The notes under the pieces are model-generated. The model was given only the letters and a program-made list of their open reading frames with translations, searched no databases and was not told the DNA's origin. The translations under genes and the position numbers were made by a program. From NCBI GenBank assembly GCA_025617745.1, contig CM046871.1:31565579-31629578 (forward strand): 64,000 bases of DNA. Direction: 5' to 3'. This DNA comes from Heliocidaris erythrogramma (lineage: Eukaryota; Echinodermata; Echinoidea; Camarodonta; Echinometridae). Positions 3,356 to 51,065 of the stretch are shown piece by piece (positions within the stretch are counted from its first letter, which is position 1; each line of letters begins with the position of its first letter).

Positions 3356-3499
3356 AATCCTCTTTTGTCCGCGAGAGGGCTGACTGTTTACAAGCGCCTA
3401 TTCTACAGAATCTCTCGGAAACTATTGAAGAACAAAGATGACATTGATCTTTTGAAAGTTAGCAAACACTGCGATCTTCAGGAGTTCCTACACTGTTAA

Positions 3500-6189: not shown

Positions 6190-8042
6190 TTAGAAAATAT
6201 TTTCATTTACGATCTTATAAAAAGGTATGTTTTGATCTTTCATTCTCTGACGAAAAGTACGAGTGTATGCTACATCACCCATTGCTAATCGACGACAAAG
6301 ATTGGGAGCGTTTTTGTTCAGGAAAAACGTCTCTGCTCTTCGATCGATCTTCTTGACTCTGGTTTTATTCAAACATGCATCGGAAGCATCGGAGAGCATA
6401 TTTCTTAAAGTAGCTAAATCTTGGGAAAAAGAAGGTCCGTAATCACGAACTTTCTGCCAAAATGTTTCATTAAAATGTTCGTAAAGCCTCACATCAGCTT
6501 TATTCCACTGACGAATTTCATCCGCCAAGTTATCGTCATCTTTCCTTCGATACTTTTCTGAACGAACCCCTTGTGCCAGATAAACAACATCATCCATCCG
6601 CCAACAGAGTAGCTTGCGTAGCAACACTAAGGATTCGTCAAAGTACTCGGTGATCATCACGAGATCGAACTCAGAATCGAGCTCACGAATCTTATTTCTG
6701 ACTTTCTCCTCATTGTCCATGTCTTTGTGGTCCATTCCGAAGTCGAAGAGATGCTGGTTGTGCATGCTCTCTTTGTAGTACTGTTTCTTCTTCATTACCC
6801 GCGCGAAGTACTTTTTCGGCGCCGAGAGAAAGAGTTTCATGGGTTCTTTTGATGGCGGCATCGCCTTCCAGATCTCGAAGTAGTTAAAGGCCGATTGCCA
6901 CTGCGCTGCCGGTTCTCGAAGAATCGTTACATACCTTTGAAAAATTATACAGTTATATTATTTATTCTTGCATGTTATTCTTTAGAGAAACAAAACAAAT
7001 GTTGCACCGAGGTATCACACATTACTTAGAGCATACCGCATAATGAAAATGTCCACCATGTCCATTTACAATAACAGCTCATATCATGATGACTGGTGTA
7101 GTTACAATGAACAAGTTTCCACCTCCGGGTGTCAAATACAATTTGCTTATTTTTCACACCCTCCTTCTTTTTGTTAATGCCCTCATTTCATCCCTTCCAT
7201 TTTCACCCCTTTATAATCAAATGCGTATTGTGTGAATTAAAATAGTGGTCTTTTTGAAGAGGAAAATCAACTCAAGGGCGATTTCAGTGCCCCATAGTCA
7301 TGAGTGTATATCCATTAGAAATCACCTTCGGATTACGTAAAACATCATTGTAATGCCAAAAAGGTGATGCACAGGGCTATTGAAATTGTCTTGGGTTGAT
7401 TTTTTTCAAAAGTGTCCAATAAATTACCTGGCGTCATGGAAAACTTTGGTCATCTCCTTCCTGTTCAGTCTGGCGTGATTAGTCAGCATGTCATATCCTT
7501 TTTCCAAGCTCCATCTTCTTTTCTTTGAATGATTACCTGGCAGACCTGCTATCTTCTTGGCGCTGAAGATGTTCCTGTTCAGTATAGACGAGCCAAGGCC
7601 TATATTAATCTCCCTGTACTTGTACGATATGTACGATCTCGCTTTCAAGCGTAAATTAACGTTATGTCAATCAAATGTAAAAATCATCGTGATGTTTTAT
7701 TAACAAATATTCGATTTAAAGTTATTGATGATGTCCAAAGGAGGCCAGTGTCGTGCTTCGCACCTCTGAAAATAGGTTACCCAGCCGTTTAATGAATGTG
7801 CAAATATATTTATTTTATAGGTATTTTTAATCAAATAGAAAATAACTACTACTACTACTAATACTACTACTACTACCACTACTACTACTACTACTATAAC
7901 TGCTACTAATACTACTACTATTACCACTACTACCACTACTACTACTACTACTGCTACTCTTGCTACTACTACTACTACTACTACTACTACTATACTACTA
8001 CTATAATTGCCACTTCTACACCACTACTACCACTACTTCTAT

Positions 8043-8077
<35 letters not shown>

Positions 8078-11000
8078 TACTACTACTATAATTACCACTT
8101 CTACCACCACTACTACCACTACTTCTATTACTACTACTACCACTACTACTATTACTACTATACCTGTAGTTGATAAAGTGACCCTTCGTTGGGACAAGGA
8201 CGGTAAGGTTTCTGGTGTAGGCATAGCGATCAAAGATGGAGCCCAGCGTTGTGGAACCTGTCTTGTGTGTCTTGAGGTACACCACCTTGTGGTGTGGTTG
8301 GCAGGAGTTCTTTGTGGACCAGTAAGAAGATACGGAAGACGTCGGTCTGGAATGATAATAATGATAATATAATCCATTTTACCATGTTTACAGTCTTAAA
8401 CATCAAATAGGGAACTTAGAAAAGTTCTTTCCGTTGAACATTTTGTGAAAATCAGTGGTCTCCCGACAATGTCAGCTTTGTTGCCGAAAAAGCAACTTTT
8501 GGCAATATTATTATGTGTTATTCATCTTATGCAATGCAACCTGCGAATGGAGGTTATATCAGGAAATTATATTGTATCAAATTTTGCATTGCACAAGATT
8601 AACAACACAGTTAGGGTTAGGTGCAGCGAGCACACTGTATGTGAGTTGTCTTTATTATTCAAAATTATTCATATGTTTCGCATACACCCATCCCAGTCGG
8701 TGGACATTATTACCCTGGCTTTAGGCACAGCTTCCCTAAGGCGCTGAAAGCGTCCAAGGAATAAATTATACCAGGTACCAATTTACTACAACTGGGTGGA
8801 GAGTAGAAAATTTAGATTAATGTCTTGCCAAATGACATTAGTGCCGCGGCGGGACTCGAACCGCGAACCATGTGATCCACAGTTCGGTGGACGTATCCAC
8901 CAGACCACGACACCTCTACACGTCTGGAAGAGAGGAAGTGAGAGTCTGTAAGCAGATAGATCGATGGATACTGAACGGAGAGAAAGGGGGTGATAATTTT
9001 TAATTGAGCAATCGTAGGAGTACGAGGCAGTGTGGGGGAGAAGCTGCAGCCTCCACTCCCATTTTTAAAGATCCTGGTAACCACCAACTCATATTCGAGC
9101 AGCGAGTGAAATTGCAATTTCTAAACAGAAAGTTAAAATGATATCTCAAAATAATAACCCGGTCACGAGACTTTCACATCGTCTGAGTTATCTAATTTTA
9201 TTCATTGCACGTTGCTAGGGCATTCGCATTTTTTTTCTTCAGGTAGGTTTATGCAGTTGGAATGGAAAGAGCACTTCCCCTTCCAAAAATAATGTTCACA
9301 AGTTAGAGACATTCGAAACTGTAAGAGCATTTAAATCATTAACGCTATACGAGAATTCAAGTCCACACTGGCGTAGCCGGAGTTGTTTAACGGGAGGCAC
9401 ACAAGATCACAGATTCATATAGTTACATACAGGCACAGACACACACACACACACACAACCGCACACGCACACAGGGGTAGGGGTAGGGTTATTAGGTGTT
9501 GACATCTAAGTTCTGTAGATGACCTTTTTTTTTTCTTTCTTTAGCGGATGAAGAAGGGGCCCCCTGTGCCCTCCCCTGGCTACGCCTATGCGACTCTAGA
9601 GTTTCTAAAGTAATTTATATCTATTTAATTGCTGAACAATTATTATGAAGACGCTGTGCTTTCATTACTAATAATAGTGATCTGTAACGAATGATTTATG
9701 TTGTTTCACATGTATCATTTGTTTTTCCATTCTTCTTCTGCGTTTTGATAAATCTCTACTTAGGTATATCTAATTTCCAGTTTAATTTCTGTATACGTAC
9801 GTAGATACTCTACATGTTGTTCTTGTTATTTTTGTTGCTGTTATACTTTTCTGATTTAGTATAATGGTGATGTCATGAGCTCATACATGTATATCTTCTC
9901 AACTATGAAATCCTGCACTTTCAATGACCTTTTTGCATTTCGAAAGTGAGAAATCAAGTTTTGGTTCCTAATGAAGTCATGACGTAGACAAGAGTTGTAT
10001 CTTTTTATTTCATCCACCTGAGCAGAATCACGTGGGGCGACATTACAATATGACTTTTCCATCCCCCCTTACCTCATCTTCTAACTTCTTTCACAATCTG
10101 CAACACAATACGATACAATGCACAACGTTCACTGAGTTGTGACAAGGTGACTGAAAGCACTTTACAGTTTCATTTTCTCACGGCGTATTTTCCAGGCTCG
10201 ATCTCTTCAGCTGACACTCTCTACTTTCTAAAAAAATATCTCGTCACGGAGCTGGAATATGAATCTTCAGATAAAAATGCACACGTTTTTAATTCTCTGC
10301 TCTGTTTTATCCTCATCTGTATCACCGTCTGTCGCTACCTGTACAGATCCTATGTGTCCGGAACGGATTGAAGGTAGGCTCAGACAAATCATTTTAGTTC
10401 CCGCCCAAAGCATGTCGTAATTGCATAACTATCGAAATATCCTTTTCTGTTGTGATTTCCCTAACGTATAGGAGAGCACCAGAAGCGCCGCAACGTCTTA
10501 GAATTTCAGTATATACTGACTGGCCCCTTTTACGTCCTGTCACATAATCCACGAGAACTATAGACTTACGGCTACTACTGTTCGACGTGGTCTCGGTCTC
10601 GTGGGCCTTCAATCAGCCAAGATCTCACCTATAATTATGCATTGGCCATTTTCCCTTCCCGAAATTAGTTTTTATTTCATATTCTCATCCATTTTAAAAA
10701 CAAAGTTGAGCTTTGGTCACGAGATGGAATTGCGAAATTAATTATCTCAAAGCAATTGGGAAAGGTTGATGATTATATAGCATATAAGAATTGGTGTATG
10801 CTGTAAGGTTTTTGAAATCACAAAAATGGTAAGAAATTGACTCAGTCCTGCTGAGAGTCACATGCACTGCACTCAGAAATGTGTGTAAGGAATTACACTC
10901 AAATGTTCGGCCCAAACCTTTCAGCTGTTTCTTGTCATATCTTTAATGTGAGGGCATTTGAAGAGCAATCCTTTTCAGGGGACATTTCTACTATGATAAT

Positions 11001-14000
11001 ATTCCAAACTAACATAAAAAAGAATGAGTAAGTTCGCAAAAATATTTTTTACCTTTCCCAGAACTCAACCTTCTCTTTAATTCTTACAGAAAGTGTAAAC
11101 ATCGGCTGCTTCTCCTATGAGTGTCAGAAGAGCCTCCTTCATGTTGGCATACCTGCAAACGCCATGACACCAACCAACTGCATGGCTAGATGTCAAAATG
11201 ATGGATATCCCTTAGCAGGCATGCAAAATAGCTCGAAATGCTATTGCCTTTGTAAAGAGACTTGCATGGTACGAGTGAGCGATGGCTTCTGTCCCTTCCC
11301 TTGCGAAGGAGACCCGCTTACAACTTATTGCGGAGGCATTGGCACAATAGCTTTGTTTGAAGGTAAGGCATCAATTTCAAAACGACCATTTGCAAATCGT
11401 AGAAACCCGGATTTCCGATAATATTCGCCAAAATTTCGCCAGACCTCCAAAATTCGTTCGGGGGAGGGGGGTATGGGGATCCAGTTTCCCTCCATAATTC
11501 TCTGACAAAAAAAAAAAAATGGTTTTCAATCTAAAAAAGGGGCGGCACAATCAACAAAAGGGCGGATCCTTTATCGTCAAAATGCATACTTTTCTTCTAA
11601 AAAAAGGGGGGGGCACGGGCCGGAAGTGCCAGATCCGCCACTGAGCTAATGTAATCATTGCACTTGACTGGCACTTGACTGATAACAGGGCCCTGTGACG
11701 TTGCCCATTCCTAATCATTTCTTCGTTTTTTATTCTTTATAGTAAACTTTCAGAACACACTGAGCCATATTTGCGTGGAAGAGGAGAAACAAAGTAGTGG
11801 TAAGTAGAATTTTCGGTCCATAAAAGATTGCTCATTTGGCAGTTGGTGCCAGTGACATTTGAAGGCAAATGGGACAAACTATCACTCCCGAGGCGATCTG
11901 GATGTAGCTATCTTTTCGAAGCAAAGCTGAGGAAAGATAGCGTATACATTCAGATCGCCGAGGAAGTGATAGTACGTCGCATCGCCTGAAATCAAAAGGT
12001 GATTATTTGCTTTATATTCCGCATCTGAAACATTTAACTGGTACGAGAAAGACAATTATTCTCTACTTCTCGAAAAAGACATTTATGATTTGGGCCCGAA
12101 TAAATTGATGTTAAAACCTATGGAATGCCATTACGGAAATAAATATAATTGTTCAATATCAATACAAATTATATTTCTCTTTTACAAAAGCATTTCACTC
12201 CAGGCAATATGTATTTCACTTTTCACAGGAATTCATTTCACTTTTCACAGGAATTCATTTCACTTTTCACAGAAATTCATTTCACTTTTCATTAAAAAAT
12301 TCATTTCACCTCGTCACAGAAATTCATTTCACTTTTCAATAAAATTCATTTTTTTCACAAAAATTCATTTCACTTTTCATAAAAAATTCATTTCACTTTT
12401 CACAGAAATTCATTTCACTTTTCACAAAAATTCATTTCACTTTTCATAAAAAATTCATTTCACTTTTCACAGAAATTCATTTCACTTTTCAGAAAACCTC
12501 ATTTCACTTTTTACAGAAATTCATATCACTTTTCAGAAATATTCATTTCACTTTTCACAAAAATTCATTTCACTTTTCACAGAAATTCATTTCACTTTTC
12601 AGAAATATTCATTTCACTTTTCACAAAAATTCATTTCACTTTTCTTAAAAAATTCATTTCACTTTTCACAGAAATTCAATTCAGAAACTCAATAAATAAA
12701 ATATAGTCAAGTAAGAAATGTAGATATGGAAAAATATTAGCCTTTTAAGAATTATTCTCTTGTAATTACATTTAAAACTATCAAGTGATGTTGCATTTTG
12801 TAGCCTGTTGGGGAGATCATTCAAAATTATTGCACCTGGGGAGTGTTTCATAAAGCTGTTCGTAAAGTTACGAATGACTTTACGAACGACTGGAACATGT
12901 TCTTGGGTGCTATACTAATCAGATTCTCAATCATTTAGCACAAGAACTGATCACCAGTCGTGCGTAAAGTCGTGCGTAACTTACGAACAGCTTTATGAAA
13001 CACCCCCCTGCATACCTAAAAGATTGTATAAATAATTGCAGCTTGGGTTGAGGTAAAATAACATTTAACGTATCAGCATTCCTAGTGTTAAAACCATGGC
13101 GATCAAAATACATCTCAATTTCATTGCACAATCGAATTGGAGCAGTATATACCGTTTATACATTTATACATAAGAGTGGCAAGAAAATAATCACGTCTTT
13201 GCTTAATACGAGGCCATGATAAACTTTTCATTAAATCGGTACCACTACTTTTCTCGTAATCGAAGTTCGCCGTTACAAAATCGAAGTTCGCCGTTACAAT
13301 GCGTGCAACCCTCTTCTGCGTTCTAAAAAGCTTCTTTTTATAAACATCCGGGCAATATTATATAACATGAATATGAATATGAATTATGATTTGAATATCA
13401 ATATCGATATGAATATGAAATATGTTCATCTTTCCAAATCAAACTTCTCTTTGACAGGTCGGATGTATCTTTATATCTCCTTGCCAATATCCATCGCTAT
13501 CATTATTGGAATAGGGCTTGTATCATTGAAACGCCGTCGTCGAAATTCGACATCACAACTTTACTCGCCGAGTCTTACTGGAAGCGTTCCTCGTTCAGTT
13601 CAAATTTCTGATCGATCTTCTGATGGACACATCAACCATTTCTATGCCGGCATTGAAGAAGTTGGTGGCCGTGATGTCTCTAATGCTCCTATGATAAGCG
13701 ATGCATCCCTTGACCGATGGCAGGTCTACGCGAACATCCCTGACCGAAGCGCGGCGGGCGACGCGGAAAACAACACTGACGGTAACCACACGTATGTCGT
13801 GACCCCCACACTACCGATGGCCCCTCTTAGTCCCTTGTATAGGGATAGCACCCCGGATGAGGATGGGTATCTTATCCCAGAATCATTCCCAGCATCCCCT
13901 CGATCTGATGCTCCTGGTGTACAAGGACAGGGCAATCGGGAGAGGTTTTTATCTTCTGCAAATGAGTCTGTATCTGATAATAACTATATACATTTACTTT

Positions 14001-16861
14001 GATTGAACATGTTGAATATCGGGTGGATGATTTTCAGGGACCATGTTTCCCTTAAATATCTATGAGCGTTTTTATTTGTAATCACAATTTTTCTACCATA
14101 AAAGGGGATAGTTTTGAATTGCACTAAATTGAATTGAACTGAAATATTGTCATTTCATTTATGTACATGTATATTGCGGCGTTTAACGACATTATACAGT
14201 TACTAGCAGAAGCAGCCCGTGGACATCCACGGGCGCTAGCTGTGTTTATGATTAATCACCGTACCGTATATTTGTCTCAATAATCAAGTGAATAAGAAAA
14301 AAAGTCGGGTAAAGTCGGGGAGGGGGCAGTCATTGAGACCTGTACATTATCCACGTAAATCACTGGCTGAATTAAAAAGCAGATTGAAGTAGGGGCAGAT
14401 CTTGATACCCTAAACAGGGAAACCCGTCTATCCCCTATTTTACTCTATCCCCTATTTTATATCTTTTATATCTTGCTTGGTATTTTACATCCTATTTAGG
14501 CCTACATTATCATCATAAGACTTCTTTTTAGCCAAAAAGGAACCGTAAAAGAAATTTAACCTAATTTGGAACACATTACCGAACTATCTCCCCCCCCCCC
14601 CCCCCTTCCGCGGATTTTCTTCTTATCAGATTTTCTGATAAAGTGTCAAATTGGGATCTGTGCTTGCAGACTATACCGTACCGGTAGCGAACGTCGTGAA
14701 ACCATAGAGTTACATACACACTAAACTCTGTGTGTGACCATGAAGTTTCAAATGATGTAACTCTATGCATGAAACATAGCACAGTGTACATGTACCTGTA
14801 TGACCTATACACGTGCGAACGATCTAACACGTGTGTTGTTGCGCCGTATGTACATTGAAGCCATCCATGCATGCGGATATGGCCACGCTGTTCTAATTTG
14901 GCATACCTCCCCTTCACAGGTAAAGTGTATGGGTTGGGCTCAGCATGAAGCTACAAACCCGCTTCATGGGTTGGCAGAATTATTAGGCCTACTCCCTGCG
15001 GAAATTCAATGTTTAAAAATGAATTTATGAAATATGGACGGCACGTCAGCCCTTAAGAAGTGCCTCCCACCACTCTAGTGGAAAGAACTTGTAAGATGTA
15101 AGCATAATCTGCGCAGAAAAAGGCTAACGGTTGAATGGTACTCTTAGGATATTTTCCCTATGAATGATTATAATTACTATTTCAGTAATATGAATGATAT
15201 GTTTGAGAGTTACAATAATTGGTCATGCATGAAATTCGTGTTCAGCTGAACTCGAATGAATATTCTTAAGATAATGTATTAATGTATTACATTTCATCAT
15301 GAGTTGCGTAGGGTGCCGTATGATCATTGAGGGGCACCGGTCTTATTCTGTAGCTAAAATGCAAATTAGGAAGGCCATTGATTGGGAAGAAGATATATGT
15401 GTGTGTGTGGGGGGGGGGGGGTAGCGTCTTCTTTTTACGTTCCATACCCCTCTCTTTTTATGTCTATCTATCCGTTCTTTTTTCTCTTGTATTCTCCTCC
15501 CCCCTAATTTTTGGTTTAGGGGCACGTGGCAACACCCTATCGTATCTACGCTACTCTTGGTCATAATACCCGCCTGTTTTATGTACTTTGAGTTGCGTTC
15601 TCCGGAAAGAAAATGATGGGATTATGTGAAGGAAAAGAGAGTATTTTAAAAATTTGGGGTGGGATAACGACTGCACAGGTCATTGCTCTATCGACAGGGT
15701 GATCTTTTGAAACAGACTATATCAACCTGACCCTGCCTGATCTACGCCCTCCTAATATATAATAATCGATACATGCCTCCGAATTCTTCTCTCTCACCTA
15801 ATGTGTATAATTAGCTAAGAATAGACGGTAGTTTAATGATATGTCAACTAAATTGATTGTAAATAGTGCACTTTAGGATCTTCTTCAAATCTCCTCTTAA
15901 TATGACACCAGAGAAGATTAAAATGTGTATTAATCTCTATCTTGTCAATAATCAAAACTTGTACATGTTGTATGAAGTGTCACACAGGGCTGGCGTATAT
16001 TTCTATTTTTTTTTCTATTGTTGTGTGTATACGTATGAATATGAATTGTTGCCTATACACAAACGATATCTTGTAAAATTATATGCAATCTATTTTAAGG
16101 TTAGTTCTGTTGTACCATTTTGAGGATCCAAATTGCCCCTTATCATTCACAGCATGGGTGTCCATCCGGGGGGGGGGGGGAGGGATATATATATATAAAA
16201 AATTGAGGTGGGGGATGGCCTGTATTATCTTCCTCCCCCCAATATTTTTGGATAAATTAAATAAGAATTGTGATACATTAACTTAAAACTAATAATTATC
16301 CAAACTCATGATGTTTGATTTTGAAATACCATTACTTTATTTAATGATTAGAAGCAAGGAAATTAGAAATGCCATAATTTCAATGCGAGGGCATTACTTC
16401 ATTGTTTGCCCCGGGCGCCATAATCCCGGACGCCGCTGGCTTTGCTCCCTCGCCGGTCATCCCCCCACCCCCATCCCCCAATCATGAACACGGATCGACA
16501 CCCCTGATTCACAGGGTTCAAATCACTAATTGTTCTTTGGCAAGACATTAATCTTCATTTACCTCTCTCCATCCAGGTGCAGTAAATGGGTATTTAGTAG
16601 GAAGTTATTCCTCGACTGATTTGGTATCCCCTGGGATGGATATGTGCACAACATAAATGTAAAGCTATTATTATTCATTACTTGTGTACGGGTGACCAAC
16701 CCATACAGAAAGTATACTCTGAAACATCCATCATGAACTCACCTGGCTTGTCGAAGTCCTCGTTGCTGAGACATCGAAGTCCATGTCATCAAGACGACCA
16801 CGGAAGAGAAGCCGACAATGAGGAGGATCTTCAGTGAAGCTTTCAAATTTCCACGTCGCAT
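6190..16861 (-). CDS. Gene A: galactose-3-O-sulfotransferase-like type II membrane enzyme, four coding exons
   Basis: The family transfers sulfate from PAPS to the 3-OH of galactose on glycolipids or glycoproteins in the Golgi lumen. Coding exons, all joined in phase 2 with GT-AG sites, are 16861-16743, 8346-8164, 7613-7428 and 6934-6190, giving 410 aa. Exon 1 encodes MRRGNLKASLK and a membrane anchor (about residues 12-27). Exon 2 carries LKTHKTGSTT (about 64-73), the 5'-phosphosulfate loop. Exon 3 holds GYDMLTNHARLN. Exon 4 begins YVTILREPAAQWQS (about 164-177), the 3'-phosphate site, followed by HNQHLFDFG and FDLVMITEYFDESLVLL, shared with genes C and D. The ATG at 16861 follows an in-frame stop. 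Upstream ATGs in another frame make a possible uORF. The 8.4-kb first intron contains a WSC gene on the other strand. Pairing of the distant exon 1 rests on phase, topology and lack of alternatives. Acceptor specificity cannot be read from sequence. Confidence 0.82.
7840..8160. repeat. (ACT)n / (AGT)n microsatellite in gene A intron
   Basis: Hundreds of bases of imperfect ACT/TAC triplets, with a near-duplicate of an interrupted segment (CTATAATTACCACTTCTACC-like). It sits in the intron between gene A exons 2 and 3 and touches the splice donor of exon 2 at 8163, so the catalytic frame reads straight into a Ser/Val-rich nonsense tail if the intron is not removed. Confidence 0.95.
8703..8915 (-). 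mobile_element. tRNA-derived SINE, family S1, copy 1
   Basis: Read on the minus strand it starts GGTGTCGTGGTCTGGTGG (box A-like) and has GGTTCGAGTCC (box B) about 45 bases on. Then comes the family body: AATGTCATTTGGCAAGACATTAATCTA, an ACCCAG block, GGTACC, and AAAGCCAGGGTAATAATGTC. The same body occurs at 16520-16675, 47071-47296 and 51446-51722. It lies in intron 1 of gene A. The tRNA-like head is a SINE promoter, not a tRNA gene. Confidence 0.85.
9368..9590. repeat. Non-autonomous element with GGCGTAGCC inverted ends and (AC)n core
   Basis: The left edge reads CTGGCGTAGCCGG and the right edge, reverse-complemented, reads AGGCGTAGCCAGGG. The interior holds an (AC)n run, a GGGTAGGGGTAGGG patch and a T-rich stretch. 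Inverted ends of this kind fit a small DNA transposon relic. It has no coding capacity. Confidence 0.4.
10277..14002 (+). CDS. WSC-domain single-pass membrane receptor with Tyr-rich tail, four exons, nested in gene A
   Basis: Exons 10277-10373, 11090-11362, 11743-11799 and 13458-14002 join in phase 1 throughout, with donors gtaggc, gtaagg and gtaagt and CAG/TAG acceptors, giving 323 aa. Residues 1-20 (MHTFLILCSVLSSSVSPSVA) are a signal peptide. Residues about 37-121 form a WSC domain: GCFSYEC, NCMARCQNDGYPLAGMQ, KCYCLC, CGGIGTIALF. WSC domains are cysteine-rich and thought to bind carbohydrate. Exon 3 adds a 19-residue stalk. Exon 4 encodes a transmembrane helix (about 146-165), a KRRRR stop-transfer and a 155-residue tail with seven Tyr. 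These include YANI (pYxN, Grb2-type), YAGI, YVVT, YLIP and a C-terminal YIHLL. Intron 1 contains repeat R1 up to the acceptor; intron 3 contains a minisatellite and a MITE. It is not Kremen-like, as there are no kringle or CUB domains. Ligand unknown. Confidence 0.82.
10690..11085 (+). repeat. Dispersed repeat family R1, copy 2 (in WSC intron 1)
   Basis: Shares AAAGTTGAG, CTCAAAGCAATTGGGAAAGG, GCTGAGAGTCACATGCACTG, ATTTGAAGAGCAATCCTTTTCAGGG and TTTTACCTTTCCCAGAACTC with copies at 2965-3355 (direct) and 24068-24475 (inverted). Similarity ends within a few bases of the exon 2 splice acceptor at 11089, so the polypyrimidine tract lies inside the repeat. Confidence 0.75.
12205..12675. repeat. Minisatellite, TTCATTTCACTTTTCACAGAAA unit (about 21-22 bp)
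   Basis: About 21 imperfect copies of ATTCATTTCACTTTTCACAGAA, with variants ending TAAAAA or AGAAAT, lie in the third intron of the WSC gene. A higher-order alternation of the variant ends is visible (for example about 12540-12650). Several units contain TTTTCACAG, which resembles a splice acceptor. Confidence 0.95.
12838..13013. repeat. Foldback MITE, GGGTGTTTCATAAAGCTGTTCGTAA ends
   Basis: Left arm GGGGAGTGTTTCATAAAGCT, then GTTCGTAAAGTTACGAATGA. The right arm is the reverse complement (TTACGAACAGCTTTATGAAACACCCCCC), giving about 60-bp arms around an approximately 55-bp loop. Its ends resemble those of the elements at 24598-24717 and 36931-37072 (GGGGCGTTTCAT(C/G)AA), one MITE superfamily. 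It lies in WSC intron 3. Confidence 0.8.
14003..16500. other. Intergenic/intronic stretch without recognised gene
   Basis: This is the 3' flank of the WSC gene and part of gene A intron 1. It holds a C16-like run at about 14587, a (GT)n-G12 run at about 15397-15422, a G12 run at about 16169 and short direct repeats. The frames at 14576-15030 and 15343-15566 lie in low-complexity or unconserved sequence, and no family is recognisable. Confidence 0.4.
16520..16675 (+). mobile_element. tRNA-derived SINE, family S1, copy 2 (5' truncated)
   Basis: Contains GTTCTTTGGCAAGACATTAATCTTCATTT, TCCATCCAGGTGCAGTAAATGGGT and a TATTATTATTCATTA tail, matching the body of the S1 family. The preceding GGGTTCAAATCACTA (about 16513) is a decayed box B. 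Diverged from the copies at 47071 and 51446. Confidence 0.75.
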
Positions 16862-17220
16862 GGTGCATCATCTGCCGTATCGTTAATGCGGTTCTCTGCG
16901 AGTCACCATGCATACACCTGCTAAGAACCTGATTTAAAAAAAGACAGTATCGGATCCAAGGGGAAAGGCCAATCAATCTGGCGTTTCTTTAATACATAAA
17001 TAAAATACGTTTTTGAAAATAGAAATACACATTATGCCATAAGATGAACATCACATAATTAAGCTTGCTTTTATATAGCACGAATAATAATGTTTTGATA
17101 ATAATTTCTTCCATAAGACATAAAGAAATCATAGTCTGAAATAAAATAATATATTCTAAGTTAAGAACGGTATACTCATCAAAACTGAATCAATTAAAAA
17201 CATAATATCTAATCACTTAC

Positions 17221-17330
17221 CGCGCTGTATGAATAGACTGTATTGCAAAGAAGTTGGGGAGACACCACATAGCCTTAATGTATTGCACCGCTCACGACCA
17301 TCGCTGTATAGACACAGCACCGTTGAAATG
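17221..17330 (-). promoter_or_regulatory. Probable 5' non-coding exon and promoter side of gene A
   Basis: On the minus strand the sequence ends ATTCATACAGCGCG|GTAAGTGATT, a near-consensus donor at 17220. The next downstream candidate acceptor is TTTAAATCAG at about 16930, which would join it to the exon carrying the start ATG at 16861. The exon's 5' limit and the transcription start are not visible. No TATA box is evident. Confidence 0.4.
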
Positions 17331-17418
17331 GAATGGATATGGTTGACGAATACAAATATTAGATTTTAAAAGATAGATATCGTGGACATTCGTCCAAGAG
17401 AGGTAACGACCGTGAAAA

Positions 17419-17886
17419 GTGATTGCAGGTCTATTGTTAATGGCGAGTCAGACAGAACGAGCACATAATAGTTATTATTATTCTTTGGAGTTGTTTTTTG
17501 CGTTCTCTTTTCCATGTCAAGCGATGAAAATACGTTTTTTGTTACTGTCTCGTACAGCCCCCGATGCTTTTTACCTAAAGTTTAAAAAAGGTATGCTATT
17601 GATCTGTCTAAATTGCCGATCAAATATTTCACTGAAACTGAAACAGTGGAGAATGTATGACATTGCAGATTTCAACGGCTCCCCTGCACTTTCAGTTTTG
17701 GATTCATTAAACAAATCATATTTTCCCTCTTCTCTCTTATCGTCTTATACTTCAGCATGTTCAGAATGGCGAGAAATTCAGACGATCTTTCATCTTCGTC
17801 ATCCTTTCAATCTATCTATTATCCTTCCTCATGTTTATGCTTTTATATTAACTTCGAATTATTTAGACAGCTTGAATAAAGAGTGA
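17419..17886 (+). other. Unassigned 155-codon open frame
   Basis: A plus-strand frame is open for 155 codons just upstream of, and divergent from, the gene A 5' exon. The predicted sequence is rich in Leu, Ser, Phe and Tyr, with no domain, signal peptide or repeat I recognise. It has no obvious splice sites in phase with neighbours. It may be chance in AT-rich DNA or a single-exon gene. Confidence 0.15.
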
Positions 17887-18055
17887 CTTTTTTCCTTTTG
17901 GTGTAATAGCCTAAACTATTTCTATATTACTTCTCCTTATATTTTAGTCATTATAATTATCATCATCACCACCAACCACCACTATCACCATCATCATCAC
18001 TGTGATCATCATCATATCCCCCCTCTCTCTCTCCCTCTCTCCATGTGTGTGTGTG

Positions 18056-18280
18056 TGTGTGTGTGGGCGTGTTTAGCCGTATGTCCGAGAATATTTTCGG
18101 ACAGAGAAGAAAAAAAAATCATGAGAACAATGGTCCCTCGGAAGCCGGACAATAGTCCTCGAACGTCGAACAATGAATTTGTGCCTTTTTCCGTTGACTG
18201 TCCGAGGACTGAGGAACAATAGAGGAACAATACTTGTCCTCGGAAATAAAGCAATACAAGACTGTGTGTGTGTGTGTGGG
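18056..18280 (+). repeat. Dispersed repeat family R2, copy 1
   Basis: Nearly matches 46324-46525 in the same orientation: ATGTCCGAG..ATTTTCGGACAGAGAA, GGAAGCCGGACAATAGTCCT, CGAACGTCGAACAATGAATT, GAGGAACAATA.TTGTCCTCGGAA. Both copies are bracketed by GTGTGTG microsatellites. The interior can fold (CCGAGGAC against GTCCTCGG), suggesting a small DNA element. Confidence 0.75.
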
Positions 18281-18710
18281 TGGGTGTGTGTATCCATTTC
18301 TAAATTCTTTTCGCATGATACTGTCACTTTAAAGCTATTTTAATGAACTGAAATATCTACCAGTTGCAATTTTTAATACATCAATCTCACAATTACTACA
18401 CATCACCATGACTATCTATTACAAAAATGATCAATTTTTCTCTCATGAAATCAATAACATTTGACGTTGGTCTCAGTAAAACAAGCAACTGAACATTTCT
18501 CGAATTCATTACAAATATCAAACAGAATATTTACGATGTTTACATGACCTAATTAATGGACTATTAAAATACATCAAAGTTAATTGTTATAGGCATGTAA
18601 ATAATATATATATATATTTAGAATTGTATTATAGACACAGCAATGGAGCCTGAAACGAGGACAATTGTACCAAACACATAAACATCATAATCTAGGGTAA
18701 TGTTAAAGTA

Positions 18711-19810
18711 ATATAGTTAGGTACACAGAACCAAATTTTATATTTTAGTGGCCCGCCATTGTTGTAATGCATTTCAGAGCCAACCTTGGATCTCAAAACG
18801 TTCGGTCGGTTTTGAAATCCTACCATAAACAGTAAAATGAAATGTGGTAGTGGTTAAGACCCACCGAAACCTCAGGGGCACGGTATTTGTTCCAAAACGG
18901 GCCCAAATGACCAGCCTTTTACTCACGGGAGTCGAAACGATTGCTTTAAGTGCTTTTCTCGAGGTAATAGAATCTCAGTAAATGGCTATTTTGATATTAA
19001 GATACAATAATACATTGTGGGTATGATAATATGGTGGCCAAATATGTGTCAGATGCCCAAATTCTGATTTTAGAGGGCCAAATGTAACATAAGTGATTAT
19101 CAAGCATTAAACTATAGTGGCATGACATTATCTTTCTATAGATATTTGAAAATGTTCTACAAATAGCATTTATCAAATCAATCGAGATTACATCATTCTG
19201 GGGGCACCTGAAAGGACATGAGAGCCCTGAACCTCTTTATTACGGACCGATTGAAAATGCATTAAAATTTATATATTTCACAGACTAACATATCAAAGCA
19301 TATGCACATGATAATTATGCCGAACTTACTAGTGATAGTCATGTACAGTATGAATAATACACGAGCACCTACAGCTTCCATTAAAAAGTTTTAAGGCCCA
19401 TTTTCTTAAAATAAGGGCCCATCAAAGGACAATAGTCTTGCTCAAATAATGCAGTGAGCTTTAACAATATTGTTCTCTATAGTAATCTCAGTATAAAGAA
19501 GTAAACAAAGCAATGATAGTTCGAAATCTCAGCATTCCAGGAGAATATTTGCGTGCTGAAATCAAATTATGAAAACGCTTTTCCAGCAAATATGACAGGA
19601 TTGGTTAAACAGACCAACACGTAGCTTTTTGTGTGCTCCCATAAAAAAAGGTCAAAGAATTGATGTTAATTCCAAGTTGTTAAGCTTTCTATTTAAACCC
19701 TCATAGCCAGGATTTGGGGGAGAGGGGCGGTCGGATTGCGCGCGCAGTCCGTGCGGGGGGGGGGGGGGGGGGGGTGCGGGATTCTCCCGAGCGGAGTGCA
19801 TAGGATTTGG
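18711..19810 (+). repeat. Long inverted repeat, left arm
   Basis: About 1.1 kb that pairs, imperfectly and with indels, with the reverse complement of 21475-22565. Matching landmarks include GTTAGGTACACAG at the outer edge, TGGCCCGCCATTGTTGTAAT, CATTCTGGGGGCACCTGAAAGGACAT, the AAGGCCCATTTTCTTAAAATAAGGG block, and GGTCGGATTGCGCGCGCA near the inner edge (followed by a G18 run). No coding potential was found. Confidence 0.85.
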
Positions 19811-21474
19811 CATCTCTTCAAATCGAGAGTGAAAATTTCCACTTGTCGATACATATTATTGTTGTTTTGATACCCTGTTTGATTTAGATTTAATATTAGT
19901 TTAATAAGTACTGCTGAAAATCAGTCATAAGAAACGTTTTCACACTCATACAAGTAAGAGTGGATAAATAACAGAATTTACATCAAAAAAATGTATACAA
20001 GCTATACGTATGTCACAAATATACTGCAAGTAAGCAATTTCTGACTTTTTAAAAACTGATATGGTAGAATGCTAGTGTGTTTTTTTATTATTTTATTATT
20101 CAATTCAATTCAATTCAAAATGGTATTTATTAAAATTTATCATGCGTCGCAACATAACGTTGAATTGGGCACAATTTACAAATATAAAATATACATGCAT
20201 ATACATCGTAGATAATACATTCAAATGAATAATTTACATGAAAGATTATTCTTAAAATAACAGTAGTTAGTTCTTAGATAATGAAAACAAAAATTATCAT
20301 TAACTACACACAGGAATGTATACTATTTTAAGCATTTGGTGATGGTAAACAATTTTTGTACGAATAGGATTTAGCGTAAGCTTTTCAGTGAAAACAAATA
20401 TTGCTCTCACTTTAAAAAATATCCTTTTTTTAGGTAAGTTCATATGAAGACAATTCATTTCACAAAACATATTTTCATTCAACATGAACACATTCTCGAT
20501 TCTAATGGTAATCTGAGGGGAGGCGGTTTTATACAGGCCACCCGTAATCTCATAAAAGAGTAGGCCTACATCTCTACATCATCTGCATCTACAACATCGC
20601 ATTGTTGATTCTTGCCGCAGTCAATGAGCGGATTTTCACTAGGGGAATTGATTTTATCCTTCCTTTATTCTTCTCCTTTTCTCCCTTCTTCTTGCTTTAT
20701 TTTTTTCTTTGTCCACCTTCTTTATTTCTTTTCTTTTCTCTTTTGCGTTCTATATGAGATCTTAGCATTTTTATCAGCGTTTTTATCTAGGCCTTTGTCT
20801 ATGACGGGATCTGAAATCAACAACTCCGTCGGACCCCCCCCCCCCCCCCCTTCACCCAACTGCCATAAAATACGAATACAAACCGAGCAATATTTCACTT
20901 CTGCGATTCTTTTCATCGAATAGAATATTATATCAAATATAGGTCATAAACCTTGAAGGCCTGTTTTTAGAAATACTATTTTACATAATTACAACTTCTA
21001 CATGTATTATATTGTAGACAACTGTAGCAGAAAAATCTATTGCAATATTTCGACGTGTGGAATTGGTCTCAGTATACCTGGCATATGTGTAAACTCCTAT
21101 CCGAAATATTTTGCAGCAGTGAGACCGTATGTCTATTGTAGGCCTACTCGGGCCATATGTTGGTTGTCATGATTCTTGTCTCCTCATAGTACTCTGATAG
21201 ACAGAACTGTAAACACTTATATTTCGGCAGAAACAATTGATCATGATATTGACAGAAAATAGATAAAACGGTACTTAATAAAGCCTCAATTTAGGCCCTT
21301 CTCACTCCCCAGAAATATTTATAGACTTTTATTTTAGCGTTCAAATTTTTCCTTAATTAAAAAATTAATCATTTAATGAAAAAAGAGCGTAAATCTACCA
21401 AACATCAGAGGATTAATCAAGAACACAATCCTCAGCTGCTTGCTTTTTTTTTTCATTTTCTGTATTTTACTGAA
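19811..21474. other. Spacer of the long inverted repeat
   Basis: About 1.66 kb of AT-rich sequence between the arms. It contains an (AATTC)n-tailed LINE-type 3' end read on the minus strand at about 20099-20230, a C18 run at about 20836 and a T-rich pyrimidine tract at about 20660-20750. No transposase-like frame is visible. Confidence 0.5.
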
Positions 21475-22565
21475 CCCCAAGGGCGCACGCTCTGCGAGTG
21501 CGATCCGACCACCCCTCCCTAAATAAAATCCTTGCTACGAGAGTGTAAACAGAAAGCTATAAGCAACTTCAAATGAACATAATTCATTGCCGTTCTTATC
21601 TTTATGGGAGTGGGAGTACACAAAAAGGTACATATGGGACTGTTTTACAAATCCTGTCATATTTTCCAGAAAAGCGTTTTAGAACTTTGATTTCAGTAGC
21701 ACTCAAAATTTCGAACTATGGTTATTTGTACATACTACTTCGTACTGGGACCAGTTTAAAGAACAATGTTGTTAAAGATCACTGCATCAATTAGGAAGAC
21801 TATGGGTCCTTTGATCGGTGGGACCCTTATTTGCGAAAAATTGCCCTGAAACCTTTTTAAAGGAAGCTGTAGGAGCCCACCGTGTATATTTATTATACAT
21901 GGCTATCAGCCATAATATCGGCACATCATGTAGCATATGTTTCGATATGTACTAAGTCAGTGATATATATGATTTTTAATGCATCAGGGATCCTATGTCC
22001 TTTCAGATCTCCCCAGAGTGATGTAATCTTGATTTTTTTGGTAAATACTATTTGTAGAACACATTTTCAAAAATGTTTAGAAATAATTTGAATTTGGGCA
22101 CCTGACACATATTTGGCCAACCTATATTATCATACCCACAATGTATCATTGTATTTTGATATCAAAATAGCCATTTACTGAGCTTCTATTACCTCGAAAA
22201 AAGCATCTAAAGCATTATTTTCGACTCTAGTGAGTAGCTGGTCCTTTGGGCCCTTTTGGAACACATGCCGGGCCCCTGAAGTCTTTGGTGGGTCTTGACC
22301 ATGACCATAATTTTCATGACCATAATTTTCATTTTACTGTTTATAGTGGGTTTTCAACACCAAACGAACGTTTCTAGCCCCAAGGTTGGCTCTGAATGCA
22401 TTACAACAATGGCGGGCCACTAAAACATAAAATTTGGGCACTTTGGGCAATTTTTATAAAAAATCAGTCGATGCCATCGTTTTCAGCAATAAATTTTACA
22501 TAGGAATCCATGTTGAAAAGAAAGTGAACACTATTTCCCCATGAGGAGCCGTCTGTGTACCTAAC
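21475..22565 (-). repeat. Long inverted repeat, right arm
   Basis: Reverse-complement partner of 18711-19810. It ends with CTGTGTACCTAAC, mirroring the outer edge of the left arm, and begins with GCGAGTGCGATCCGACCACCCC. It has its own tandem duplication ATGACCATAATTTTC at about 22300-22330 that the left arm lacks. Confidence 0.85.
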
Positions 22566-24475: not shown

Positions 24476-24597
24476 AATTAATAAATCAGTGTTATTTTCG
24501 CACATTTCATTAGGTGATAGACAAAGTCTATATTGGAATTGCCTCAGGTTGATTTCTCGAAAGTATGTGCGATCGTGCTCTGGATACGCCGGAGATG

Positions 24598-24717: not shown

Positions 24718-24974
24718 ATTGTGGTTGTGAAAGACATAATTATAAATGATATCATTTACAATTATTCTTCAATATGAGGCTGTTAAGCCTGTAATACCCA
24801 ATCACATCGGGGTCGAATTGACTCAAAAGCCACCGATTATTGGACATTCGTATTAAGCTTAATTTTATTCGGTCTATCGTCTATTGTCGGCCTCGTTGAT
24901 TTGACTGGAGTATAAGCATAGACATATTACTGATGATATAATAGAAATGGAGAGGGAGGCCATAATATGAGAGC

Positions 24975-27900
24975 CTACTCTCTCCTTTTTTTGCGATATT
25001 CGCGACTGTTGTATGTCGGTATACCTTGTAGCATCATTCGTTCCCTGATAAGACGGGTGAAATCCACATCCCCTCTCGCAAGGTGTTGGCACCAGGCCGA
25101 TGGGTTATTCTTCAAAGAAAAGAGCACCACTCTCCTATCGTTTGAATTCTTACGGGTTGAATTGCAGCATTTATCATACGTATCAGCTAGCTTTTCTCTG
25201 AACTCTGCAAGGTCCTGCTCAAAATTAGGCCCGTACTCTCTAACTTTCCGCCAAAACGTCTGATTGAAATGTTTGTAGAGAGCGACATCTGCTCTGTTCC
25301 ACGCCTGAATTTTGGCTCGAAGATCTGGCCCAATCTCAACATGATAATCAGGTGTGCGCGTCCCTTTCGATAGGTACAAAATATCGTCCATACTCCAGCA
25401 AAGCAGCTTCCGAAGGAGGAGCAGAGACTCATCGAAGTACTCGGTGATCATGACGAGGTCGAAATCGGCGTCGATGTCGATAATTTTCCTTCTGACCTTC
25501 ACGTCATCGTTCATATCGTCATGTGACATGCCAAGGTCAAAGAGATGCTGATTGTGCATGCTGTCTTTGTAGTACTGCCGTGTTTGCATGACGTTCTTGA
25601 AATGCAGCTCGGGGTCATCCATGAAGAGCTTGAGGGGTTCCCGAGACCGTGGGAGGGACCTCCAGATCTCGAAATAGTAGAAGGCGGATTCAAACTGCGC
25701 CGAGGGTTCTCGGAGTATGGTCACATACCTTGCATCGTGGAAGACTCTATCCATGGACGATCTGTTATACCGTGCGTGGTTGGTGAGGATATCGTACCCT
25801 TTTTGAAAAGTCCAGAGACCGTTCCCTGTGTCCTTCGCCTCGGTGAGGTTGACCTTATCAGCTTTGAAGATACTCTGGTAGTTAACGAAGTGGTTCCGGT
25901 GTGGGACCAAAAAGGTTAGATTGTTGAGGCAGCCATACCGCTGGATGACCGATGCTAGGGTTGTCGACCCAGTCTTGTGCGTCTTTAAGAATACCAACTT
26001 CTGACGCGGTATGCAGTTGGTGCTCCTTGGTTCTGAGGATGTTCTGAAGATGTTTGTCTGTGTATGTCCGGATGATGTGTGTCTAATGGTTTGCAATAGT
26101 CTTTGCTGAAGAGGACCTTTGCTGGAATTTAAAAAATACAAAAGAATAACGATAAATTTTGTTCGAAAATGAGCACTTCGTGAGGTGTAGGAACGTGAAT
26201 TAAGGGATGTGATCAGTTTTCCGAGACCAATACAACTTCTTCCCTCGCAGCAGAGTTATTATTCCTCCTTATTTGTCGAAATGCTTTTCTAAAATGAATG
26301 AACTGTACGGTACTTTTATCTGATTCTAGAAATTGCTACTTTTAAAACGAGAAAAAACTATAGACTATCTTACCCCAAAGAGGCCTTTATAAAGTAGGTG
26401 TAGGTGTAGCTCTAAATGGAATATAGAGGAAAGAGAACCTGACATTTTCAAAGAAACACACTCTAACAAGTGAAATGCCCAGGACAGTCTCGCCTGAATT
26501 AATAGTGCAATTATCGGGGCAAAATTTTGATGAAAAATTAAAGGTTGGGGGTTCTTAAGGGGTGCTGCCCCCGGACCTGGACCTTGGGGCAATGTACCCT
26601 GTTTAAGGACTTGAGGTCTCCATCCTCAACTTTGCTTACAATCTTGCAATAGGGCTTCAAGAAGAAGAAGCAAAAAATGAATCTAATTACTGCCATTATT
26701 GGTGCTCTTGGGGGCACTACCCCTCCCTCCACTACCAGCAATTGCAAAGTTTTGAGAAGTCAAATACATGTACATACTACATACATGCATGAAGACAAAA
26801 CTTAATTTTACCAAAAACTTAAACGAGTTAAACTGTCAGTAGGTGACCTTTAATGTGATGAAAATGTAAGATTTGGGTATTTATTTGAAAGAGAAGAAAA
26901 TAAAGACAATTCTTACCAGGAATGATGCCAAGTTTCAAAGAACTTAAACAAATACTTTTGAAATAAAGTAAAAATTCAAAAACTTAACCTCGGGTTAAGT
27001 TTTTGGAACACAATTTAAATCAATTACATTTGACCTGAAATTTATTCCACATTATTTGTGATACTCTACAACCCTTGTGTACAAGTTTCATGGAAATTTA
27101 ACATACTTTTGAAGTGACAGCATTTCCAAAATTGTTGACGCCGTCACCGCCGCCGACGCCGTCGGAAATGCGGCGCCTATGTCTCGTTTTTTGCTTACGC
27201 AGGCGAGACAAAAAAGTGTTAAAGGGGAATTAACCTCAAAATATAAATGTGCTTATATTCAAAGATGTAATCTACTCCTTCTTGTTGTCCTACGTCGTTT
27301 TGCAGTAAAATATACGAGATGGGTATAAATCAAGATTTTCTCAGCAAGATTTATCGTCTGCTAGCGATACCCGGAGGCTGCCACTTTCTTGATGTGTACA
27401 TAAAGATATTTTTAATCCGAATGCAAAATTTTCTTTCTTCCTGATACAAAATCCCTTTTGAGATTTAAAATATTTAACAGATATATACATACATTCTAAA
27501 ATTTTCTTTGAAAATTACGATTTTACTAAATATAAATCTATTTTCTTGATACTATGACGTACGCTCCGGAGCGAATTAATTCAAATTTATGGATGATAAC
27601 TTTCACGAGCGTCAATAGTGACAAACTATGCATTCACCTGTTGTGAGATAATGGACTTAAAAGTCCAGAATGCGCGTTGTATAAATTATATTCTGCTCTG
27701 CCAGGCAAGCCCCCAAAATCGATTTCTAGTTAGCAAAACCAGATAATTTAAAAAGAAATCTGTAAATTTCAAATTTTAGAATATATGTATACACCTGCTA
27801 TGTATTTTCCATCATATATATGGGGATTTTTTCGTAATGAAGTGAAGCAATTTAGATCGAGGATTAAAAATAGCTTCCTGACCGGAACGGTTTCCAACGA

Positions 27901-29437
27901 TTCATGTACAACTCCATGTCATCAAGAAAATGGCAGCCCTTATTTTCTTCATTTATTGTTACTATGGGCCTATGTATTTATCTTTTTCCCGCGTTAGTTC
28001 ATTTATCAAATAAACCTTTTATCTATATAAAGCAAAAGTGATTGGGCAAATCAACAATGATTGGTGCTCTTAATAATAATAATAATAATAATATGGACAT
28101 TTGTATTGCGCCGGTATCCATCATGGTGTGGGTATGAGAATCAGCGGTCCTCGCAAAAACACTGGAAAGTTAATATTCGGGCACAAGGGGTCCCCCTTTG
28201 GCAATGGGCAGCAGCTCCCCACCCTAGGACTTTCAAAGTTCCGATATTTTTAAAGTTCAATTCAATTCAATTCATTTTATTCAATACTCCATAAAAACAA
28301 CAAAAAATTCAATTATACAGCGTATACAAAACAATAAAATACAATCAAATGAGGAGAAACAATACAATTATTCACGAGAATACAAAATAAATAAAGTGAA
28401 CATAAACAGTATGGAAGTATTAAGAACTTAGCAGGAAGGCAGTGCCTTATATGAAGCCAAGTCCAATGGAAAAAAAACCCCGGTTATTCAGAGAGAAAAT
28501 AACAACCAACGCACACACAAAAAAACAACAACATAGAACACACAGACAGACACACCCCCACACACGCGCACACCGAATACATAATTACTTATCAAGTAAA
28601 TGATGTTCAAGACGCATTTATTCGGGCAGCGAGGCGCTAGAATATCCACATAATAGGGCAGCGAGATTCTCAGATAATTATCTAACTTCTGTATGTAACT
28701 TCTGTACATTTTTTTTTTCTCTCTCTCGCTTCGATCTATGGCAAAAATTTATAGAAACTGAAAAGTTTATATTTTTTTGGTGGCAAAAGGCATTCTCCTT
28801 TGGCAATGGGCTGCAGCCCCTACCCCCCCCCTCCCCTCGAGGATTTTCAAAGTTCGATATTCGGGAAACACAACTTCATATTCGGAAGCGAGGTGCCAGA
28901 CTATCCACATGTTGGGGCAGCGAGGTTCCAGATGATTATGTAACTTCTGTATATATATATATAAATATTTTTTTTTTAGAAATTGAAAAGTTGATATTCG
29001 GGCAAAAGGCGTCAGCCCCTCCCCCCCCCCCCCCCCCCTTGCGAAAATGGGCCCGTATGATCAACATCTCTTCATCTGCGATTTTCTTTTATTATTATTA
29101 TTTGTGGGGGAGATGAGGGTGCAGCATTTTTGTCGGCAAATTTGGGTGTCACATTTGGGTGTCAGACCCCCCCCCCCCCCCCATTCAAAATGTTATAGCG
29201 ACGCCCCTGATGAGAGTGAAAGACATAAATGGACATGGCAGCACTGCAATTAAATATAATGGTTACTTTTGATTTTTGTTTGTTTGTTTATCTATTGTTT
29301 TTTCCGTACCTGCTTTTACGATTACGAATGGGAGGTAACGAGAGCAGGGCCGAAAGAGAGACGATAACGAAGATGATGGCGATGATGAACAGGATGAAGG
29401 TCGGGCGGGGGAAGAGATGAGAGCAGCATCGTAACAT
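24975..29437 (-). CDS. Gene C: galactose-3-O-sulfotransferase-like type II membrane enzyme, two exons
   Basis: Exon 1 (29437-29310) encodes MLRCCSHLFPRPTF, an Ile/Leu/Val-rich anchor (about residues 14-34) and PPIRNRKS, ending in phase 2 before gtacgg. Exon 2 (26121-24975) starts after TTCCAG and runs to the stop, giving 424 aa. The 5'-phosphosulfate loop LVFLKTHKTGSTT is at about 85-97 and the 3'-phosphate site RYVTILREPSAQFES at about 174-188. The family blocks HNQHLFDLG and FDLVMITEYFDESLLLLRKLLCW follow. Unlike gene A, the catalytic domain is intronless. Minus-strand AATAAA at 24869-24864, about 105 bases past the stop, is a good poly(A) signal. The frame is open upstream of the chosen ATG (SQYVNASTDEVHDDHGL) after a possible acceptor ATCCCAG, so a longer N-terminus from another exon is possible. 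Role as for gene A: PAPS-dependent Golgi sulfation of galactose; acceptor unknown. Confidence 0.88.
26810..27200. repeat. Dispersed repeat ending in CGCCGCCGACGCCGTCGGAAA
   Basis: The block contains AAACTTAACCTCGGGTTAAG, an AAGTTTCATGGAAATTTAAC segment and ends with CGTCACCGCCGCCGACGCC, GGCGCCTATGTCTCG and CAGGCGAGACAAA. This combination is familiar as a high-copy repeat of many marine invertebrate genomes. It lies in the gene C intron. Assignment is by memory of the motif. Confidence 0.5.
28075..29215. repeat. Dispersed repeat family R3, copy 1, with poly-C tracts
   Basis: The segment starts with (AAT)n at 28076-28092 and ends TTATAGCGACGCCCCTGATG. Blocks such as ATATTCGGGCAAAAGGCGTC, GCGAAAATGGGCCCGTATGATCA, and TTTTTGTCGGCAAATTTGGGTGTCA are shared with 45187-45950. 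A C19 run is at about 29022 and a C16 run at about 29167. A LINE-type (AATTC)n end at about 28258-28275 is embedded. It lies in the gene C intron just before exon 1. Confidence 0.7.
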
Positions 29438-49330: not shown

Positions 49331-51065
49331 ATGAGGAGCGTAATGATCTCTCGAAGGCAATTCACAGCGGCTTGCATCACCATGGCGTTGTTGGTTGCCA
49401 TGGCAATTTACATGATGACAACATTGGCAGATGGGATGGCGGCGGTGCTTCTGAACAAAAATCTTCTCTCTACGTGAGTGAGAGTGAAACTTTCTTATTA
49501 GGGATTTTGTTCTTTATTGTAAGGTTAAAAAGGTTAAATGGATGACTCCGATGCTTGGAACCGGGAGGTCCTGTATTCGCAATCAAGTTAGATGACTATG
49601 TTACCCTTGGGGTAGGCGCAGTAGACATAGATCCAAAATACCTAACTCCCAGGCAGGACTTACTGTGTATGCCTTATGGAAAAATAGAAAATAGATATAA
49701 ATCGAACTCACTTTAAAGTGACAAGATATTATTCTAACGCCTGCCTACAGTGTGAAAATCATCCAAGATCATATGTTCTGCATGCGGTATGGGCGGAGGT
49801 AATTTCATTTAATAACGGGGAATTCCTTGAATTAAATAATATAAAAAAACATAATAACCGAAACGAAAAATTGATAAATGACGGAAATCCAAATAGAATA
49901 TTGCTGTTGTCCTTACAGGAATAGAATGCAATCCGCATTTGGGGAAAAAGAACCACTTCCGAATCCACAAATGATCAACGTCACACGCACTTCAAACATC
50001 CAGGACTCAAAGACTACACCCGACCCAGTGCAGCGTCTGGTTTTCTTGAAAACACACAAGACGGGTTCCTCCACCGTTACTTCATTCCTGCAGCGGTATG
50101 GCTACCTCAATGATCTGTCCTTCCTAATGCCAAAATGCGGACATTCTTTCGACACCTACCGACACTTCGATGTCTCAAAGATCAAAGGACTGTCCTCCAC
50201 GTCCGCAAGAAAGAAGAAGACGTTGTTTAACTTTCTTACGAACCACGCTCGTTATAGTCGAAGTGATATGGATGCAGTATTACACGGGGCGAAGTACGTC
50301 ACCATAGTGCGCAACCCTGTCTCCCAGTTCGAATCCATGTTCTATTACTTCCGAATGTTCCAGTATCTTCCAGCGGGAAACACCTCACTGGCAGCATTCT
50401 TCGAGGACCCAGAGAAGAACTTTGAATCGATGCGCAGTAAGAATAGGCAGTTAACTGAGAAGCGGATGCATAATCAACAACTCTTTGATTTAGGAGTCAA
50501 TCTGGACGACATGAGTGATACCTCGACGGTAGATGGCAAAATACATCGTCTCCAGGACGAGTTCGATCTCGTCATGATCACGGAGTATTTCGATGAGTCG
50601 ATGCTACTCCTAAGTAAGTTAATGCATTGGAGTTTAGAGGATGTAAGACATATATCAAGAGGAGCGCGGCAATCAGGTTTTCGCCAGCCATTGACTGACA
50701 GCTTGCAAGCTCAAATCCGGTCGTGGAATTCCGAAGACGTTAAGTTATACGAACATTTCAATAGGACGTTCTGGGAAAAGGTTAAGGAGTATGGACCCAC
50801 CTTTAACGAAGATTTAAAAACGTTTCGACGAATTCAAGTTGATTTGTTTAATACTTGTCGTAATGCAGAAGAAGATGACACGACAGATCGACGCGTAGTG
50901 AATTCAAGGTTGAAGGAAGGGGCGCCGAATTGGTGCTCTTATTTCTTTACAAGTGACGTGCAATTTACATCACTTATTCGCAAGAGAATGAAAAAGAAAG
51001 GATTACCCCTCTATGATACTTGTGACCAAGTGAAACGAAAAGCAAAATCACGTGTTTCGAAGTAG
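49331..51065 (+). CDS. Gene D: galactose-3-O-sulfotransferase-like type II membrane enzyme, two exons
   Basis: Exon 1 (49331-49473) starts with ATG in AGCAACCATGA and encodes MRSVMISRRQ, an Ala/Met/Leu-rich anchor (about residues 11-33), and ends in phase 2 at TCTAC|gtgagt. Exon 2 (49919-51065) follows TTGTCCTTACAG. The protein is 429 aa. LVFLKTHKTGSSTV (about 88-101) is the 5'-phosphosulfate loop and KYVTIVRNPVSQFES (about 173-187) the 3'-phosphate site. The family blocks MHNQQLFDLG and FDLVMITEYFDESMLLL are present. The C-terminus is very basic. As in gene C the catalytic domain has no intron. It is transcribed toward the right, opposite to A and C, and begins about 360 bases after a large inverted repeat. 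No TATA box or poly(A) signal is obvious nearby. Expected to use PAPS in the Golgi to sulfate galactose; the acceptor cannot be predicted. Confidence 0.9.

Follow-up and report, generated by a model that had tools for sequence, protein, structure and literature searches.

A WSC receptor-like gene predicted in antisense within the first intron of a galactose-3-O-sulfotransferase gene of Heliocidaris erythrogramma

Introduction

Nested genes have been reported to account for about 10% of Drosophila genes and 1% of human genes, two-thirds of them lying on the strand opposite to the host, and most human nested genes are described as functionally unrelated to the gene that contains them (PMC4394429). 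Another report puts intronic genes at about 6% in Drosophila (PMC3786989), and the opposite orientation is given as the most common one for nested genes (PMC3933685). Antisense intronic examples include the LRRTM genes in introns of the alpha-catenin genes, OMG, EVI2A and EVI2B in NF1, and 2mit in timeless2 (PMC3933685; PMC4394429; PMC3786989). Here we describe a stretch of 64,000 nt from Heliocidaris erythrogramma (the window) in which a gene for a WSC-domain membrane protein (W) is predicted to lie within the first intron of a sulfotransferase gene (A). W resembles these examples in being a complete opposite-strand gene in one host intron, although the gene families differ, and whereas the nesting of LRRTM is reported to be conserved across most jawed vertebrates (PMC3933685), that of A and W is known from one window. 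Among the papers surveyed on nested genes in echinoderms and on galactose-3-O-sulfotransferases in echinoderms or sea urchins, none dealt with such a nested pair, judging by titles and the beginnings of abstracts.

Among the closest systems at the protein level are WSCD1 and WSCD2; their orthologs are reported from echinoderms through to vertebrates, and their clade is set apart from other glycan sulfotransferases (PMC9304399). Those proteins unite a WSC and a sulfotransferase part in one chain (PMC9304399), whereas here the two belong to separate genes on opposite strands, with A in the family PF06990; a WSCD1/WSCD2 identity was rejected for both A and W, as Pfam joined WSC and sulfotransferase in neither protein. 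With galactose-3-O-sulfotransferases (PF06990) A has in common the profile match, PAPS-type motifs and an N-terminal anchor, and with type II Golgi enzymes a basic head followed by a hydrophobic N-terminal segment. W shares a WSC domain, a signal peptide and one membrane segment with Kremen1 and Kremen2; it was not taken for a Kremen, since Pfam found neither kringle nor CUB in it. Fungal Wsc1-type sensors have a long Ser/Thr-rich stalk. W has a single WSC domain, one membrane segment and a cytoplasmic tail in common with these sensors but, unlike them, a stalk of only about 20 residues.

Results

On the predicted coordinates, all four exons of W (plus strand) fall inside intron 1 of A (minus strand), so that every exon of one gene lies in one intron of the other (Table 1). 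Comparison of the coordinates revealed no exon overlap, with gaps of 1,912 and 2,740 nt between the exons of the two genes, and the mature mRNAs of A and W therefore cannot pair. The whole span of W lies inside the transcription unit predicted for A, on the opposite strand. The first-pass annotation had placed a WSC-transmembrane gene in the interval that separates the first two coding exons of a sulfotransferase gene; the coordinates, the domains and the exon 1 tests given below agree with that placement, and the opposite strands were recovered when both genes were rebuilt from the sequence with continuous frames. As a gene prediction, the nesting is confirmed and slightly refined.

Table 1. 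Predicted features of genes A, B, C and W, in positions of the window.
Feature	Position	Strand	Remarks
A possible 5' UTR intron	16929..17220	-	putative; donor after 17221 (10.3); acceptor-like TTTTTTTAAATCAG ends 16929
A coding exon 1	16743..16861	-	ATG, type II signal anchor, phase-2 end at CAG/GTGAGT
A intron 1	8347..16742	-	8,396 nt, phase 2
A coding exon 2	8164..8346	-	contains LKTHKTGSTT; without in-frame ATG
A coding exon 3	7428..7574	-	predicted
A coding exon 4	6190..6934	-	contains VTILREP; runs to stop
W exon 1	10259..10373	+	signal peptide; second in-frame ATG 10277
W exon 2	11090..11362	+	WSC domain
W exon 3	11743..11799	+	short stalk
W exon 4	13458..14002	+	membrane segment, cytoplasmic tail with seven tyrosines, stop
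B candidate anchor exon	29310..29437	-	phase 2, donor 9.8
B catalytic exon	24975..26121	-	single open frame
C candidate anchor exon	49343..49473	+	phase 2, weaker donor 5.9; other in-frame ATG 49331
C catalytic exon	49919..51065	+	single open frame

The coding exons of A (119, 183, 147 and 745 nt, every intron in phase 2) give a product of 397 residues. In a Pfam search it matched the galactose-3-O-sulfotransferase family (PF06990) over residues 11-343 with E 1.8e-66 (225.2 bits against a gathering score of 27), which upholds the earlier identification of A as a sulfotransferase. A second Pfam match, among those with E up to 1, was far under its cut-off, leaving PF06990 as the sole convincing family; at the same limit A had no WSC match in Pfam and no relative among PDB sequences. 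The sequences LKTHKTGSTT (residue 64) and VTILREP (residue 152) are what we take to be the PAPS-binding motifs. Within the N-terminal 26 residues, a short basic stretch leads into a hydrophobic segment, the hydropathy reaching 2.11 at residues 8-26. This is the layout of a type II N-terminal anchor, and the product would be a galactose-3-O-type sulfotransferase with type II membrane topology, presumably located in the Golgi. The donor after 16743 scored 12.9 and the acceptor before 8346 (TTCCAG/A) 6.0; the other junctions of A were modest, with a donor of 5.3 at 8164 and acceptors of 5.3 and 3.3. An untranslated exon ending at the donor 17221 may precede coding exon 1 and be spliced to about 16929. 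Directly after coding exon 2, within intron 2, lies an ACT microsatellite of about 106 copies (7845-8160), which might affect splicing near that exon.

The four exons of W, with every intron in phase 1, would encode 329 residues, and because W has introns it is not a simple retrocopy. Two in-frame ATGs, at 10259 and 10277, lie 18 nt apart, with an in-frame stop at 10212, and either may be the translation start; of the span 10277-14002 given previously, the four exons stand, whereas the start may instead be at 10259. The WSC domain (PF01822) matched with E 5e-10 and 39.9 bits (gathering score 27.8) over profile positions 2-82 of 82, and a membrane segment follows within residues 149-175, about 20 residues after the domain, in keeping with the description of W as a WSC-transmembrane protein. 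Of the features described as characteristic of the WSC domain (PMC9024836), W has the eight conserved cysteines, assigned by eye from their spacing (C45, 69, 73, 89, 91, 106, 110 and 119), as well as the CGG motif, at 119; three extra cysteines lie at 50, 93 and 97. Only WSC was above the cut-off in Pfam: kringle, CUB and sulfotransferase matches were not found in W. We infer that W is a surface protein, and the tyrosines of its tail could be signalling sites.

Among PDB sequences W had five matches, the best being 9n3u_A (E 0.0036), and Kremen was weak (E 0.1-0.26); the single-sequence AlphaFold model of W was too poor for use (mean pLDDT 35.2). Elsewhere in the window no W-like (WSC) sequence was found, the best tblastn match outside the exons of W having an E of 1.6 or worse. 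The introns of W also contain repeats. Intron 3 harbors a 22 bp minisatellite of about 21 copies (12213-12683), followed by broken open frames on the minus strand (12684-13357) with no Pfam match, which presumably resemble the C terminus of the reverse transcriptase of a non-LTR retrotransposon. Another repeat, some 400 nt long and with copies 72-79% identical, occurs at 10694-11084 (W intron 1), 24071-24477 and 3026-3361.

The nesting depends on whether 16743-16861 is the first coding exon of A. Upstream of coding exon 2 its frame stays open for about 11 codons, none of them an ATG, and, as the exon itself offers none, an upstream exon ending in phase 2 is therefore required. A scan of the minus strand from 8347 to 24974 for phase-2 ATG-to-donor pairs with a donor score above 3 gave 38 pairs, some with a common donor. 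Among these, 16861-16743 alone had both a donor of at least 6 and a hydropathy of at least 1.6; 10062-9887 and the other phase-2 pairs were discarded as they did not combine a good donor with a membrane segment. With all phases included and at least about 19 residues, 16861-16743 ranked first of 57 by combined score, by the narrow margin of about 21.3 to 21.0 over a frame running through coding exon 2 and the microsatellite. That frame is not the catalytic one. A hydrophobic stretch beginning at 8403 was rejected, as it ends in phase 1 and is off the catalytic frame.

Dinucleotide shuffles of the region produced a donor of at least 12 with a hydropathy of at least 2.0 in 0 of 300 cases and the combination of at least 6 and at least 1.6 in 40 of 300, figures to be read with some caution given that the cuts were chosen after the real exon was known and that the weights used for splice sites were approximate. 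Over both strands of the whole window three candidates passed the latter cut, namely exon 1 of A, exon 1 of B and 63740-63601 (minus). The PF06990 profile includes the anchor region and hence can be used to test exon 1. At full length A scored 225.2 bits with exon 1, 214.7 without it and 214.8 with one decoy exon in its place (a gain of 10.5 for exon 1); in shortened constructs the scores were 91.0 with exon 1, 82.6 without, and 81.7-84.3 with eight decoys (a gain of 8.4). The nine decoys, drawn from the 37 other pairs, gained at most 1.7 bits, though the gain from exon 1 may partly reward any hydrophobic stretch.

It could be argued that the gene model is in error, such that 16743-16861 belongs elsewhere, A starts at another exon and W is simply an upstream neighbour. 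The long junction is a prediction only, and its acceptor is moderate; nevertheless the candidate scan, the ranking, the shuffles and the Pfam gain all single out 16743-16861, and on the minus strand below it a search limited to sulfotransferase-like partners found no such sequence besides A. We regard an error of this kind as highly improbable, and retain 16743-16861 as the first coding exon of A.

A is one of three galactose-3-O-sulfotransferase genes clustered in the 64 kb, with tblastn identities to A of 53% for B and 41% for C. The catalytic part of A has two introns that are absent from B and C. In B the open frame has no ATG ahead of the PAPS motif; in C in-frame ATGs are present, with no membrane segment after them, and phase-2 acceptors occur at 26121 in B (score 6.1) and at 49919 in C (9.9). 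The candidate anchor exon of B was at the top of 70 candidates, while that of C, with its two ATGs, took rows 4 and 5 of 84 and was first among those in phase 2, its donor falling under the cut of 6. In B and C the Pfam match starts downstream of these exons, which it thus does not test. If the candidates are right, a split phase-2 anchor exon would seem common to A, B and C, and the first introns, with the anchor exons of B and C taken as candidates, would measure 8,396, 3,188 and 445 nt, respectively. Tblastn with W detected nothing WSC-like in the first introns of B and C. Values of dN were 0.41 (A-B), 0.61 (A-C) and 0.56 (B-C), whereas dS could be estimated for A-C (2.75) but for neither A-B nor B-C; these figures fit purifying selection.

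Searches of the window with Rfam at gathering thresholds and with ARAGORN gave no match, and ten of its open frames, picked by eye, had no Pfam match above the cut-off. Just upstream of C there is a near-perfect inverted repeat (46855-48973), with arms of 344 nt at 100% and of 116 and 92 nt at 98-99% identity, which is a foldback element, a recent palindrome or an assembly artefact.

Discussion

Our results favor an ordinary antisense nested gene, which we consider very probable, and W and A would then act independently. W has its own start, exons, stop and signal peptide exon, would be transcribed from its own promoter, and would have come to lie in, or have been enclosed by, the long first intron of A, against which it runs. 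The anchor exon of A would then sit 8.4 kb upstream of the catalytic exons and be connected to them through the 16743-8346 junction. Provided that both genes are transcribed, the antisense of W would be present in the A transcript only within this intron, and be removed together with it. A search upstream of A and W found no TATA-like match.

An antisense interference and a functional link had both been raised as possibilities by the first-pass annotation, and for neither did we obtain direct evidence. According to the first, transcription of W would lower that of A through collision of polymerases or pairing of unspliced transcripts, resulting in mutually exclusive expression. The opposite strands and the location of the W span wholly inside the A transcription unit are compatible with this, and inverse regulation has been called likely for opposite-strand pairs (PMC4394429). 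However, the exons do not overlap, and the argument fits any antisense nested pair, with nothing specific to this one. Interference between the two transcription units is thus conceivable in principle, as it is for any such pair, but we find it improbable here as an account of the locus.

Slightly less probable still is a functional pair, in which A and W are co-regulated, the ligands of the WSC domain are glycans that A or its sisters have sulfated, and selection maintains the nesting. In favor of such a pairing it can be noted that WSCD1 and WSCD2, which are sialic acid sulfotransferases, are themselves WSC-domain proteins (PMC9304399), that a fungal protein with three WSC domains is reported to bind beta-1,3-glucan (PMC9024836), and that the sea urchin REJ proteins 6, 7 and 10 have WSC domains (PMC1934368). 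On the other hand, A belongs to PF06990 while W is without a sulfotransferase match, and no WSC sequence lies near B and C. Further, a structural comparison of WSC domains is reported to show no obvious pocket for a glycan (PMC9024836), REJ1, the binder of the fucose sulfate polymer, is not listed among the WSC-bearing REJ proteins (PMC1934368), and the reported lack of relation between human nested genes and their hosts (PMC4394429) points the same way. Of the proposed combination of a glycan-modifying enzyme with a putative glycan-binding receptor, the enzyme is borne out by the galactose-3-O-sulfotransferase match of A, but glycan binding by the WSC domain of W is putative. The most elaborate version, in which the pair is a split-gene counterpart of WSCD1/2, with selection keeping a galactose-sulfating enzyme beside a surface receptor that recognises its product and antisense transcription coordinating the two, seems to us very unlikely.

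The independent, ordinary nested gene being our preferred reading, what the window offers is a well-supported predicted antisense nesting beside a sulfotransferase cluster, and the pair as it stands is an ordinary one. For annotation the locus is of use in that gene finders may break A or fuse W into A. Conservation of the pair in related species would make it an example, open to testing, of a locus with both a glycan enzyme and a receptor.

Finally, a dispersed repeat with copies about 74-81% identical occurs at 8740-8916, 16524-16612, 47069-47213 and 51550-51723. Two of its copies are inverted near the ends of intron 1 of A and bracket W (arms 8769-8837 and 16531-16599, 80% complementary), an arrangement that could in principle help to loop out the intron; since further copies are found at 47069-47213 and 51550-51723, a plain repeat family is suggested.
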